This document shows positions 44,795 to 49,409 of a DNA stretch of 64,000 bases, one piece after another. The notes beneath the pieces are model-generated. The model did not search any database and had not been told where the DNA came from. It saw only the letters and a list, made by a program, of their open reading frames with translations. The position numbers and the translations under genes were made by a program. The DNA comes from an uncultured Victivallales bacterium (GTDB taxonomy: Bacteria; Verrucomicrobiota; Lentisphaeria; Victivallales; UBA1829), in NCBI GenBank assembly GCA_944391115.1, contig CALXSJ010000003.1:62001-126000 (forward strand). The letters are read 5' to 3'. Every line of letters starts with the position of its first letter. Position 1 is the stretch's first letter.

Positions 44795-46000
44795 ATGCCG
44801 GAAGAGGATCATATCTTCAGTGTAAGCGAACTCAACGGGATCATGCGTGAAATCGTGGAAGGTTCGCTCCGTCCGATGTGGGTCGGCGGCGAAGTCGGCA
44901 ATCTGACGCTGCACCGGAGCGGACACGCCTACATGACGCTCAAGGACGCCTCCTCTCAGATCAAGGCGGTCTACTTCGGCGGCGCGAACGAGTGCGCGAA
45001 GCTCAAGGTCGCCGAGGGTTCCCGGATCGAGGCTTACGGAAAACTCTCCGTCTACATGCCGCGCGGCGAATATCAGTTTGCGATCCGCAGTCTGCGTCCT
45101 CTGGGGCTGGGGGAACTCCAGCGGCAGTTTGAGCTTCTGAAACAGCGCCTTGCCGCCGAAGGACTGTTCGACGAATCGCGCAAAAAACCGGTTCCGTTTC
45201 TGCCTGCGCGCATCGGGCTGGTGACTTCGCCGGACGGCGCGGCTCTGCACGATTTTCTGAAAATCTCCCTTTCGCGTTTTCCCGCGCTCGACATCAAAAT
45301 TTATCCCTCTCCCGTGCAGGGGAAGGGGGCGGAGCGTTATCTCGCCGCCGGAGTGAATTTCTTCAACCGTTACGGAAAGGTCGATGTGATCGTTCTGACG
45401 CGTGGAGGAGGGAGTCTCGAGGACCTCTGGCCGTTCAATGAAGAGGTCGTGGCGCGGGCGATTGCCGCGAGCCGGATTCCGGTTGTGAGCGCGGTCGGGC
45501 ACGAGATTGATTTCACGATCGCGGATTTTGCCGCCGATCTGCGTGCTCCCACGCCGTCGGGTGCGGCGGAGATGCTGATCCCGGAAAAAGAGGCGCTCGA
45601 GGAGACGCTTTCGTCGTTCCGGAGCCGGATCCTCGGGGCGGTCTCGCTCTCCTACGAGCGCGCGAAAAGCCGTCTGGACGGACTGATCGCCTCGGAAGCG
45701 CTGCGCAAACCCTCTTATTTCGTGATGGAGAAAAGCCAGGAGATTGATCTTCTGCTCAAGGACATGGCATCTGCGCTGGAATGCGCGCTTTCCGATGCGG
45801 ATGCACGTTTGCGACTCATGCGCGGCCAGTTGAAGACATTAAACCCGTATTCCATTCTGAACCGCGGGTATGCAATGCTGTTCGGCCCGGACGGGTCTCC
45901 TCTTGCAGATGCATCCGCCGCACCGGCGGGGACGCTTCTGACGGCACGGCTTGCCAGGGGCACGCTCCGTGTCCGTTCCGAAGGCGTTGCGGAGGAGTGA
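44795..46000 (+). CDS. xseA: Exodeoxyribonuclease VII large subunit
   Basis: A 401-residue protein with the N-terminal OB fold (MWVGGEVGNLTLHRSGHAYMTLKD) and the catalytic region containing ARIGLVTSPDGAALHDFL, DVIVLTRGGGSLEDLWPFNEE and VSAVGHEIDFTIADFAADLRAPTPS. The C-terminal coiled coil ends in LNPYSILNRGYAML. The family normally works with a small subunit XseB, whose gene is often adjacent; none is seen here. The ATG is one base after the stop codon of the M50 protease gene. A TTTTCC-GGC-GGAAAA hairpin lies 20 bases past the stop but has no T-run. Confidence 0.96.
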   Translation: MPEEDHIFSVSELNGIMREIVEGSLRPMWVGGEVGNLTLHRSGHAYMTLKDASSQIKAVYFGGANECAKLKVAEGSRIEAYGKLSVYMPRGEYQFAIRSLRPLGLGELQRQFELLKQRLAAEGLFDESRKKPVPFLPARIGLVTSPDGAALHDFLKISLSRFPALDIKIYPSPVQGKGAERYLAAGVNFFNRYGKVDVIVLTRGGGSLEDLWPFNEEVVARAIAASRIPVVSAVGHEIDFTIADFAADLRAPTPSGAAEMLIPEKEALEETLSSFRSRILGAVSLSYERAKSRLDGLIASEALRKPSYFVMEKSQEIDLLLKDMASALECALSDADARLRLMRGQLKTLNPYSILNRGYAMLFGPDGSPLADASAAPAGTLLTARLARGTLRVRSEGVAEE

Positions 46001-46162: not shown

Positions 46163-46190
46163 TTGACTTTTCCGTCGGCGGTTGTATCTT
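46163..46190 (+). promoter_or_regulatory. Promoter of the structured leader RNA
   Basis: TTGACT (46163-46168), 16 bases, TATCTT (46185-46190). Expected transcription start near 46197. The stretch 46001-46160 upstream holds no gene that I can support. Confidence 0.5.
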
Positions 46191-46196
46191 TATTAA

Positions 46197-46450
46197 AAGA
46201 GAAGTGTTGTTTTTCGAAAAACTCAAAGGAGATTGAATGAATCAGAACTGAAGATGATCCTTTCAGAAGATAGAAAATAGAAACTGTATGAACGTCGAGC
46301 CTTGAACTACCACTTCAAATGAATGACGTTGCACAACCGGAAAAAACGGACGCGCTGATGTTTTCTGGCGTACTCCGATTCCTTATGGGTTGTGTAACGC
46401 TGTGGTAGGCGGAAGGCTCGCATAATTAAATCGGAGTGCGCCTTTTTTTT
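46197..46450 (+). ncRNA. Highly structured leader or small RNA upstream of the ankyrin gene
   Basis: A gene-free stretch with a long rod: CGAGCCTT (46296-46303) with AAGGCTCG (46413-46420); CTACCAC (46307-46313) with GTGGTAG (46402-46408); and a 12-bp helix of 46327-46338 with 46388-46399. A 14-bp stem, 46367-46380 with 46429-46442, is followed by eight T. The rod and the terminator stem cross each other, so they are alternatives or a pseudoknot. AAAGGAG precedes a four-codon frame MNQN at 46237. I do not recognise a known riboswitch, 6S, tmRNA, RNase P or SRP signature. Confidence 0.6.
46367..46450 (+). terminator. Intrinsic terminator ending the leader RNA
   Basis: GGCGTACTCCGATT (46367-46380) pairs with AATCGGAGTGCGCC (46429-46442) with one G-T wobble, and T8 follows (46443-46450). 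The large loop of 48 bases is unusual and contains half of the alternative rod. It lies 34 bases before the ankyrin start codon. Confidence 0.7.
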
Positions 46451-46483: not shown

Positions 46484-47362
46484 ATGCTTCCACGATTATC
46501 CGGCGGTCTGTATCCGTTCCGTTCCATTCTTCAAAGGATATCCGGATGCCTGCGTTATTTCCGCGGATCATCCGGAGACGGTCTGCTTCTGCTTGTATTT
46601 CTCTTTTTCTGTGTATTCATGGGGCTCTTTTTTGTGCCGGATTCCCGCATGAGCAGGGATGCCGCTGATGCCGCGGCCCGGAAAAAAATCCGCCTTTCCA
46701 GGGATTTCTGCATTGCCGCCGCGGAGGGAAATCTGAAAAAAGTTCAGTTTCTCCTGGCGCATGAGCGTATTTCTCCGAATTTTCCGCGATCGGGCTTGTT
46801 TCATGAGACTCCGCTGATTCTGGCCGTGAAAAACCGTCATTGGACGCTTGTGCATTATTTACTGCGGAAGAATGCCTCTCCCAATCTGGGAAGATGCAAT
46901 GGCGTGAGCCTGCTGGAATATGCTTTTCATCATGGCTCTGAGGATTTGTTTGCCTTGCTGCTTCGATACCGGGCGAATCCCAATGTCAGGGACGGAAATG
47001 GAGACCCTTTGCTGTTTGCCGCTGTCCGCGGGGGAAAGCATGCCATGCTGAAACTTCTGCTGGAGGCAAAAGCGGATCTCCGCAGACGAGACCGCAGGAA
47101 CAGGAGTGTTCTCCATGAAGCGGTGAACTGCAATGACGGACAGAGTGCAAGGCTGCTTTTACAATACGGTGCGGAAATCAATGCGCTGGATTGCCTTCAG
47201 GAAACCCCCTTGCATCTTGCCGCCCGAAAACGGAATATGGATATGATGTTTCTGCTGTTGAAACATGGGGCCGATCCGGGCATGCGGAATATTTCCGGTC
47301 AGACCGCACAGGAACTTTTCAGAACAGATTCTTTCCGTATCCGGAGTATGCCTGAGTTTTGA
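46484..47362 (+). CDS. Membrane-anchored ankyrin-repeat protein
   Basis: A 292-residue protein with one membrane helix near residues 36-57 (LLLLVFLFFCVFMGLFF) and about six ankyrin repeats from residue 75 to the end, for example TPLILAVKNRHWTLVHYLL, GDPLLFAAVRGGKHAMLKLL and TPLHLAARKRNMDMMFLLLKHGADP. The topology suggests repeats facing the periplasm. Ankyrin repeats mediate protein binding; the partner is unknown. GGGGGAG favours the ATG at 46484, with 46475 as alternative. Expression would require readthrough of the terminator directly upstream, so the leader probably regulates it. Confidence 0.82.
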   Translation: MLPRLSGGLYPFRSILQRISGCLRYFRGSSGDGLLLLVFLFFCVFMGLFFVPDSRMSRDAADAAARKKIRLSRDFCIAAAEGNLKKVQFLLAHERISPNFPRSGLFHETPLILAVKNRHWTLVHYLLRKNASPNLGRCNGVSLLEYAFHHGSEDLFALLLRYRANPNVRDGNGDPLLFAAVRGGKHAMLKLLLEAKADLRRRDRRNRSVLHEAVNCNDGQSARLLLQYGAEINALDCLQETPLHLAARKRNMDMMFLLLKHGADPGMRNISGQTAQELFRTDSFRIRSMPEF

Positions 47363-47522: not shown

Positions 47523-49409
47523 TTACGGAATGCGTGTTTCCTTCCTCTGTTTCCAGAGGGCAAGAACGTATAGCAGCCAGAGGAAATACTGGTTATTCCT
47601 GCGTTCCAGCCAATGATCCTCCAGAAGCTTCCGGATGAATTCCGGTTTGAAATTCCATTCCCGGTGTATGGTTTCCGGGGTGAGCAGCTGTCGGGAGGAA
47701 TCTTTGAGTGCTGTGCGGAACCAGTCGCCGAGCGGGGTGGAGAAACCCTGTTTGGGGCGATCCCACAGCGTTCGCGGGATGTAACGCTCCAGCACCTTTT
47801 TCAGGATTCTTTTCCCTCCGTGACGGCGATCATATTGAAAGGAGAAAGGCAGGGAAATTGCAAATTCCACAATCCTGTGATCCAGCAGGGGCGGACGCAC
47901 CTCCAGGGAATGCGCCATACTGGCCCGGTCGACCTTGCAGCAGATGTCATCGGGCAGATAAAGCGCCATGTCGAGGAACGGCGCCAGGTAACGGGAGGGA
48001 ACCTGCTTTTCAAACTCCTTCAGGGCCCGGCGCAGCACCGAGTGTACAGAGTCAAACTTGCGGCCGGTCAGCTGCTCGAAGCGCAGGCGGGAGTAAACGC
48101 CGGAAATCATGCCGTACATATCATCAAACCGGTCATAGGAAACCACCGCTCCGCATCTGCCTGGAAGGGATTCCGTTCCGAACAGTGTTTCCAGAATTTT
48201 TCCTCCGCAGCGGCGCAGAACGCGGGGAACATACTCATCAATCCATGCAAATTTCCATAAGGCGGAGAGATTATTGTATCCGAAAAACAGCTCATCTCCG
48301 CCATCGCCGGAAAGCGCGGCCGTGACCTGTTTCCTTGCCACGGCGGACAGCAGATAAGTCGGCAGGGCGGAATCGTCGCCGTATGGTTCATCATAGATGT
48401 CCGGCAGTTTCGGCAGAATGGCGAAGAGTTCCTTTCCCGTCATGATTTCACAGGTGTGATCCGTGCCCAGATACTCCGCGATTTTTGCCGCATGATGAGT
48501 CTCGTCTTCCTGTTTTGTTTCAAAGCCGATGGTGAAGGTTTTCAGCTTTCCTGTACCGAGATGGTGCTGGGCGATTGCGCAGATCAGACTGGAGTCGATT
48601 CCTCCGGAAAGAAAAGCGCCGAGGGGCACGTCGGACATCAGCTCTTCCCGGACCGCCTCGTTTAGAAGGCGGTCCAGTTCATCGGCGGCATCCTCCGGCG
48701 TTCCGGAGAATTTCGTTTCCGGGATCCGGATTTTCCAGTAGGTTTCGGTCCGGCATTTCCCGTTTTCAAAAACCGCATATTGTCCGGGAGAAACTTTGAA
48801 GGTGTTCTGGTAGATTGTCAGCGGGGAGGGGATATAGCGCAGCAGCAGATAATGATCCAGGGCGACGGGATCCATCTTTTCCCGGCATTCCGGCAGAGCG
48901 GTAATCGCCTTGAGTTCCGAGGCGAAAACAAGCGTTCCCCCGCGGAGGTGGTAGTAAAGAGGTTTGATTCCCATTCTGTCGCGGAGCAGGAGCAGGCGGG
49001 GGACGCTGTTTCTGCGGTCCCATAGTGCCGCGGCGTACATCCCGCGCAGACGGCGGAAGAATGATTCCCCCTTGAAACAGAACCCCCAGAGGAGAACTTC
49101 GGAATCGGAGTCTGAGCGGAAATGCGCGCCCTGTTTTTCCAGCTCCTCCCGCAGTTCGCGGTAATTGTAGATTTCCCCGTTGACGGCCACTGCGACGCGC
49201 CGGTCCGGTGTGACGAATGGCTGCCTCCCCGCCTCGGAAAGATCAAGAATGCTCAGGCGGCGGTGTCCCATCCAGAGTTTCCAGTCCGTTTCCGTGTCGG
49301 AAAAAACGCCCTGCTGGTCCGGTCCCCTGTGCCGGAGTGTCTCCAGCGCCGTTTTCATCTTGTTTTCATCGGGGATGCAGCGTCCTGCATATCCGAAAAT
49401 CCCGCACAT
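47523..49409 (-). CDS. asnB: Asparagine synthase (glutamine-hydrolysing)-like amidotransferase
   Basis: A 628-residue two-domain enzyme. Cys2 of MCGIFGY is the glutaminase nucleophile (N-terminal Ntn domain with RHRGPD and AVNGEIYNY). The synthetase domain has the PP-loop LSGGIDSSL and ALSGDGGDELFFGY. It forms asparagine or, in glycan clusters, amidates sugar acids or related acceptors. Being the last gene of a ten-gene glycosyltransferase cluster favours the second role, by inference. The start is fixed because Cys must follow Met. There is an 11-base gap to the GT9 gene. Confidence 0.93.
   Translation of the reverse strand: MCGIFGYAGRCIPDENKMKTALETLRHRGPDQQGVFSDTETDWKLWMGHRRLSILDLSEAGRQPFVTPDRRVAVAVNGEIYNYRELREELEKQGAHFRSDSDSEVLLWGFCFKGESFFRRLRGMYAAALWDRRNSVPRLLLLRDRMGIKPLYYHLRGGTLVFASELKAITALPECREKMDPVALDHYLLLRYIPSPLTIYQNTFKVSPGQYAVFENGKCRTETYWKIRIPETKFSGTPEDAADELDRLLNEAVREELMSDVPLGAFLSGGIDSSLICAIAQHHLGTGKLKTFTIGFETKQEDETHHAAKIAEYLGTDHTCEIMTGKELFAILPKLPDIYDEPYGDDSALPTYLLSAVARKQVTAALSGDGGDELFFGYNNLSALWKFAWIDEYVPRVLRRCGGKILETLFGTESLPGRCGAVVSYDRFDDMYGMISGVYSRLRFEQLTGRKFDSVHSVLRRALKEFEKQVPSRYLAPFLDMALYLPDDICCKVDRASMAHSLEVRPPLLDHRIVEFAISLPFSFQYDRRHGGKRILKKVLERYIPRTLWDRPKQGFSTPLGDWFRTALKDSSRQLLTPETIHREWNFKPEFIRKLLEDHWLERRNNQYFLWLLYVLALWKQRKETRIP

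Follow-up and report, generated by a model that had tools for sequence, protein, structure and literature searches.

The leader RNA described here lies on the + strand of the 64-kb window, that is, the whole stretch of DNA analysed, directly ahead of a gene for an ankyrin-repeat protein. It follows a gene at 44795-46000 that we take from its translation to be the exonuclease VII large subunit, and the ankyrin gene is flanked on its other side by what is, again read from the translation, presumably an asparagine-synthetase-like protein (47523-49409). The ankyrin product matches Pfam PF12796 (Ank_2) with an E value of 5.9e-39, and its start at 46484 is backed by a comparison of starts across genomes G001-G003. 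A search of genome contigs for protein relatives of this product returned a near-identical copy from a Victivallales MAG alone, and a tRNA scan of the window found none. The minimum free energy of the leader is -71.8 kcal/mol, compared with -58.6 +/- 4.6 for shuffled sequences (z -2.87), which is a moderate signal. The features of the locus are as follows.

46163-46190, + strand: promoter-like -35 box TTGACT and -10 box TATCTT, 16-nt spacing (sequence scan)
46225-46231, + strand: SD-like AAAGGAG in the leader; position kept among copies, start codon not kept
46237-46251: SD-led frame ATG AAT CAG AAC TGA (MNQN), read from the sequence
46291-46296, + strand: P1 5' strand AACGTC, partner 46325-46330
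46297-46303, + strand: P2 5' strand GAGCCTT, partner 46413-46419
46304-46306, + strand: H1 5' strand GAA (TGAA counting T46303), partner 46314-46316
46307-46313, + strand: loop 1 CTACCAC, kisses 46402-46408
46314-46316, + strand: H1 3' strand TTC, partner 46304-46306
46325-46330, + strand: P1 3' strand GACGTT, partner 46291-46296
46331-46338, + strand: P3 5' strand GCACAACC, partner 46388-46395
46347-46353, + strand: P4 5' strand CGGACGC, the putative antiterminator strand (local folding of 137 copies)
46367-46380, + strand: terminator 5' arm (T1) GGCGTACTCCGATT; 46368-46370 and 46374-46377 double as P4 3' strand
46383-46387, + strand: T2 5' strand TTATG, partner 46421-46425
46388-46395, + strand: P3 3' strand GGTTGTGT, partner 46331-46338
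46398-46400, + strand: H2 5' strand CGC (covariation)
46402-46408, + strand: loop 2 GTGGTAG, kisses loop 1 at 46307-46313
46409-46411, + strand: H2 3' strand GCG (covariation)
46413-46419, + strand: P2 3' strand AAGGCTC, partner 46297-46303
46421-46425, + strand: T2 3' strand CATAA, partner 46383-46387
46429-46442, + strand: terminator 3' arm (T1) AATCGGAGTGCGCC (covariation)
46443-46450, + strand: U-tract T8, directly 3' of the T1 3' arm
46484-47362, + strand: ankyrin-repeat protein gene, 292 aa, the putative regulated gene; start codon 34 nt past the U-tract

All three genomes examined from the same genus yielded close copies of the leader in a DNA search, which also detected traces of it in further genera of the family. 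Covariance model R1, built from six copies with the kissing pairs included, located the element in 16 of 36 genomes of the family and in 55 of 137 genomes of the order Victivallales, where about 145 copies were counted. Given that a genome can hold as many as 13 copies, a sizeable regulon of accessory genes is likely. A further model, R2 (28 sequences), comprises P2, H1, P3, P4 and H2 and omits the kissing pairs, P1 and the terminator. It detected the element in 60 of 198 genomes of the class and, within an even sample of 388 genomes of the phylum, in 11 genomes outside the class. Judged from sequence, the leader is a copy of a widespread RNA family that is scattered through the Verrucomicrobiota. 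Elements were read out from about 140 loci, and the pairing and covariation counts given below are based on alignment A7, which was made by R2 and has 112 distinct rows. Unlike most other genera of the window's family, which carry the element, one genus (g5) had no copy in any of the genomes searched (G007, G014, G021, G025 and G027-G035). This absence provides a handle for a search for trans-acting factors by gene presence and absence.

The initial annotation had described an interrupted rod within the leader. The pairing of 46297-46338 with 46388-46419 does exist, but the structure that results consists of P2, P3 and the kissing hairpins H1, TGAA(CTACCAC)TTCA, and H2, CGC-T(GTGGTAG)GCG. The two loops change jointly among copies, for example to CUGGUAC/GUACCAG, UUACGAC/GUCGUAA, CUGCAAC/GUUGCAG or CCGGAAA/UUUCCGG. 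Since the two flanking stems covary as well, for which a plain rod gives no reason, we replaced the rod reading by that of two kissing hairpins. The kissing helix is paired in 99.9% of cells of A7 with covariation at 7/7 pairs, many sequences of this alignment having first been retrieved with R1, which contained the kissing pairs. In 19 copies from other families and classes that were found by R2 only, the kissing helix is complete or nearly so, P1, P2, H1 and H2 are present, and the terminator helix is even longer. P2, which has 7 bp in the window, is paired in 99.2% of cells (6/6 pairs covarying), H2 in 94% (3/3) and P3, with 8-12 bp, in 86-95%, every pair covarying. H1 reaches 84% and occurs in the variants TGAA/TTCA, AGAA/TTCT, CAAA/TTTG and GAAA/TTTC.

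Arm swaps between copies agreed with these alignment counts. P3 scored 11.1 in its native combinations and 7.5 after swapping, and a P1 score of at least 5 was obtained for 92% of native compared with 51% of arm-swapped copies. When partners were slid by one column, pairing fell from 84% to about 35%, and all slid controls collapsed. None of 500 shuffles (0/500) attained the covariation observed for the kissing helix, P2, T1 and T2, and no shuffle reached any of the five core measures. Thus, the pairings on whose conservation in homologues the initial annotation had staked its reading are retained, with covariation, in about 145 diverged copies. Outside the named helices, unpaired positions conserved above 85% were confined to G208, T209 and A269 of A7, which now belong to T2, and to the U-tract. 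Because so few unpaired bases are strictly conserved, no metabolite pocket is evident. Loop and stem sequences diverge widely among the copies within one genome.

The 14-bp terminator stem with T8, also part of the earlier description, is present. In the window, the 14-nt arms of T1 pair perfectly, including one G-U pair, and run directly into the T8; in 112 copies, 95.7% of T1 cells are paired and 10/12 pairs covary. A U-tract of at least 6 T in 8 nt was found in 134 of 137 copies. A G+C-rich hairpin directly followed by a U-tract is what characterizes an intrinsic (Rho-independent) terminator, and T1 is predicted to act as one. Because its loop, which is itself folded, is unusually long (about 48 nt), a simple terminator scan misses the terminator of the window. 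T2 is paired in 97.6% of cells, all three pairs covary (3/3), and GTG/CAC alternates with GTA/TAC in other copies. It starts exactly at the end of P3 and immediately past the end of P2. Since T2 adjoins both ends, the terminator, P2, P3 and the kissing helix are best seen as one pseudoknotted fold, which the sequence allows them to share. With P2 and P3 next to each other, an arrangement to which the kissing of H1 and H2 points, the terminator helix could span from the end of one to the end of the other.

The mutual exclusion of rod and terminator that had been proposed was consequently not upheld, as P2, P3, the kissing helix and the terminator could coexist in this fold. The helix that excludes the terminator is P4: its 3' strand is part of the terminator 5' arm, for which reason we regard P4 and the terminator as the true exclusive pair. 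When the copies were folded with their upstream sequence, P4 took up five or more nucleotides of the terminator 5' arm in 136 of 137; with the upstream strand shuffled, the share was 66%. The mean energies are near balance, with -19.1 kcal/mol for P4 and -16.8 kcal/mol for the terminator duplex. As the inner part of P4 is variable in the alignment, some of its columns being paired in 52-63% of cells, part of the evidence for P4 stems from the folding of individual sequences. An antiterminator and a terminator that exclude each other, as expected of an attenuator, are therefore encoded as a potential of the sequence.

Ahead of the element, the promoter-like TTGACT/TATCTT reported initially is found at 46163-46190. 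Across 131 copies, the best matches to a -10-like box peak 60-105 nt upstream of the element, and their mean score is modestly above that of shuffles. The SD-led MNQN frame is likewise present in the window, but it is not conserved. An SD-like motif occurs between -95 and -45 in 92 of 137 copies, compared with 28 in shuffles, and is trailed by a start codon at a distance of 3-11 nt in 6 of 117 copies; within the genus, the frame is already absent from G002 and G003. Given the rarity of the start codon, we rejected MNQN as a conserved leader peptide. In most copies from the order, the SD-like purine motif (AAGGAG, GAGGT or AAAGG) is fixed about 45-60 nt before the element. Pairing of this motif with the CCUCUUUU tail was considered and discarded, as the two are complementary, yet without covariation (native 7.25, swapped 7.13).

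Several loci deviate from the single complete copy. Tandem elements 0.4-0.6 kb apart were observed at L089 (1066 and 1501), L121, L151 and L048, in some cases with barely a complete gene, or none, in between, and resemble tandem riboswitches or decayed gene copies. L094 (578-1501) contains an exact duplication of about 0.92 kb that comprises the element and a 126-aa gene of a nameless small family. Truncated or chimeric elements were seen at L104 (1083 and 1512), L173 (992) and L156 (559). In these, the 3' half of one type is joined to another 5' half, and the partner of loop 1 is missing or mismatched, which may reflect recombination between copies, decay or an assembly error. Furthermore, an extra conserved small hairpin (ATGCGT-CAACGCAT or TAGCATCAACGCTA) directly 5' of P1 was noted in other families of the Verrucomicrobiota (L210-L212, L214, L215, L218, L220 and L222-L224).

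In 114 of 127 cases, the element and the nearest ORF downstream share a strand; the figure is 99 of 107 for those ORFs within 150 nt, compared with 79 of 125 for upstream ORFs. From the U-tract to the best start codon, which is usually accompanied by a ribosome-binding sequence, the median distance is 42 nt, so that most copies could hardly accommodate a separate promoter in between; in approximately 25% of copies, no start codon is found within 120 nt. The element thus occupies the 5'-leader position expected of an attenuator. Within its own genus, the leader keeps the ankyrin gene as its partner, and in G002 both are found together at another locus with a different upstream neighbour. The 119 downstream proteins included EcoRI-type adenine methylases (13), staphylococcal-nuclease domain proteins (12), ankyrin proteins (7) and Sel1 proteins (4). 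GmrSD N-domain proteins, UDP-sugar dehydrogenases, M48 peptidases and sulfatase/phosphoethanolamine-transferase-like proteins occurred twice each, besides zinc-ribbon proteins and small nameless families. PADLOC models match several of these proteins, and such matches of the ankyrin and methylase proteins do not by themselves prove a role in defence. Because the downstream genes share no pathway, a ligand cannot be guessed from them. Copies with loop 1 CCACCAC (L066, L071, L121 at 1512, L143, L161 and L170) mostly precede genes for EcoRI-type adenine methylases, so that the type of leader partly goes with the type of gene.

The element is probably a cis-acting transcription attenuator that would gate readthrough into the downstream gene, here the ankyrin gene, and a member of a new class of structured leader RNAs. 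The initial annotation had left the choice between an attenuator and an independent sRNA. The former is strongly favoured by the pairings of P4 versus the terminator, the U-tract, the same-strand gene about 40 nt further on in most copies and the relocation of leader and ankyrin gene together in G002. The latter is the main rival and less likely. A free-standing trans-acting sRNA of about 160-260 nt would end at its own terminator, and expression of the gene would come from leak-through or another promoter. Promoter, compact knotted fold and strong terminator do form a complete unit that exists in several copies per genome, and a terminator helix belonging to the fold is what a stable, end-protected RNA would have. 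The same-strand gene starting a median of 42 nt past the U-tract, the pairing of leader and ankyrin gene after relocation and the conservation of the alternative helix P4 nevertheless speak against it. Moreover, loops and stems differ so widely among the copies of one genome that no common trans-target sequence is preserved, and we consider an sRNA of this kind rather unlikely.

Less probable still is antitermination by a protein-responsive or processive element of the put or EAR RNA type, which would modify RNA polymerase so that it passes this and later terminators. A large structured leader RNA with few conserved unpaired bases in front of gene sets without a common pathway would suit such a role, but the element possesses a conserved terminator of its own and a competing helix, which is the logic of an attenuator, whereas put and EAR elements are located upstream of separate terminators. 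A search of the literature on processive antitermination yielded nothing comparable. There is only a slight chance that the element acts at the DNA level, as an attC-like or repeat-family mobile or recombination element that spreads with accessory genes and whose RNA fold is incidental. The multiplicity of copies, some of them tandem or partly chimeric (L089, L094, L104 and L173), and the association with genes of accessory type, among them EcoRI-type methylases, nucleases and GmrSD, would fit this explanation. It is opposed by the placement nearly always upstream of a gene in one orientation, with a 5' promoter and a 3' U-tract, and by the conservation of strand-specific RNA features (G-U pairs and the U-tract). 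Plasmids and phages also gave no match to the probes tried; in viral contigs, one pattern produced zero matches and an exact 15-mer hit 42 chance-like stretches, none of which was convincingly backed by R2. Least credible of all is ribosome-mediated attenuation via the MNQN frame: the frame exists in the window and the SD-like motif keeps its position about 50 nt upstream of P1, but the motif is followed by a start codon in only 6/117 copies, and the frame is lost within the genus.

For the transcription attenuator, we propose the following order of events. RNA polymerase would start about 100 nt upstream of the element, and the 5' strand together with P4 would fold first, with P4 occupying the terminator 5' arm. 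Once the 3' strand of P3, H2 and the 3' strand of P2 emerge, the core could fold, namely P3, the kissing loop, P2 and probably P1, thereby laying the terminator 5' arm beside the emerging 3' arm. T2, situated between P3 and P2, might then nucleate the terminator helix, so that P4 is displaced and transcription stops at the U-tract. We infer that the core promotes rather than prevents termination and that a signal acts on the core; the fraction of readthrough would depend on a signal by which the core is stabilised or disturbed or P4 is held. This signal may be a small molecule and could equally be a protein, an RNA or the speed of the polymerase. As a broader and clearly more tentative proposal, the element may represent a new phylum-wide riboswitch-like class, associated with many horizontally variable accessory and defence-like genes. 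Its terminator would lie inside a knotted tertiary fold, with the kissing hairpins side by side and the terminator spanning from P2 to P3, and termination would report on the integrity of the entire fold as a general cellular signal changes it. The element would constitute an orphan regulatory RNA class outside Rfam, found in many Victivallales and in scattered members of the phylum. Its architecture poses the question of whether tertiary folding of a nascent RNA can drive intrinsic termination, and it offers a handle on a signal that may gate genes for methylases, nucleases, zinc-ribbon and ankyrin proteins in a phylum that has received little study.

The initial annotation had recognised no riboswitch class, in agreement with the comparison to Rfam 15. 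At gathering and permissive thresholds, only chance matches to CRISPR-repeat and T-box models appeared in the leader and none at the element, and no family matched the element in 16 diverse relatives. Our literature search retrieved no paper describing the element, which goes unmentioned in the main texts of the 104-motif, 50-genome and human-microbiome papers; an earlier listing as an unnamed candidate in survey supplements or in the 224-motif paper is possible. The kind of RNA is already known, namely an attenuator or riboswitch-like leader, but no described family fits as far as covariance models can tell. Integron attC is a single-strand hairpin site that follows the cassette gene and carries conserved R boxes. 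We rejected it on account of placement, given that the element precedes its gene, with a promoter and a U-tract. The Acido-Lenti-1 RNA (RF01687) has been reported from Lentisphaerae and is listed as not cis-regulatory (PMC2864571). Its model matched neither the window nor the relatives.

Type III toxin-antitoxin systems (ToxIN) share with the element the order of promoter, pseudoknotted RNA, terminator and gene; their RNA consists of tandem short repeats and their gene has the ToxN/AbiQ fold. This candidate was also rejected, since each leader holds a single unit without short tandem pseudoknot repeats and the downstream genes are diverse (methylases, nucleases, zinc-ribbon, ankyrin and dehydrogenase) and not one toxin family. 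The c-di-GMP (GEMM) riboswitches resemble the element in being present in several copies per genome before functionally unrelated genes. The architecture of the element differs, however, and the GEMM model matches neither the window nor its relatives. The ZTP and fluoride riboswitch classes are transcription-terminating and have aptamers that overlap the terminator. The same applies to the HMP-PP/thiS riboswitch (eLife 2019, PMC6478431). Like these three, the element is a 5' leader with a strand shared with the terminator, mutually exclusive terminator and antiterminator, and a gene immediately downstream. While their small aptamers lie inside the terminator, the element spans about 150 nt and has a 7-bp kissing loop and a pseudoknotted terminator. 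It further differs from them in having few conserved unpaired bases, which sets it apart from most metabolite aptamers, no gene pathway in common and no Rfam match. Lysine and purine riboswitches contain two hairpins on a multi-branch junction that are locked by loop-loop pairing. In contrast to these, all seven loop bases of the element pair and change freely by compensation, and its terminator 3' arm, placed immediately past the closing stem P2, pairs into the loop of P3.
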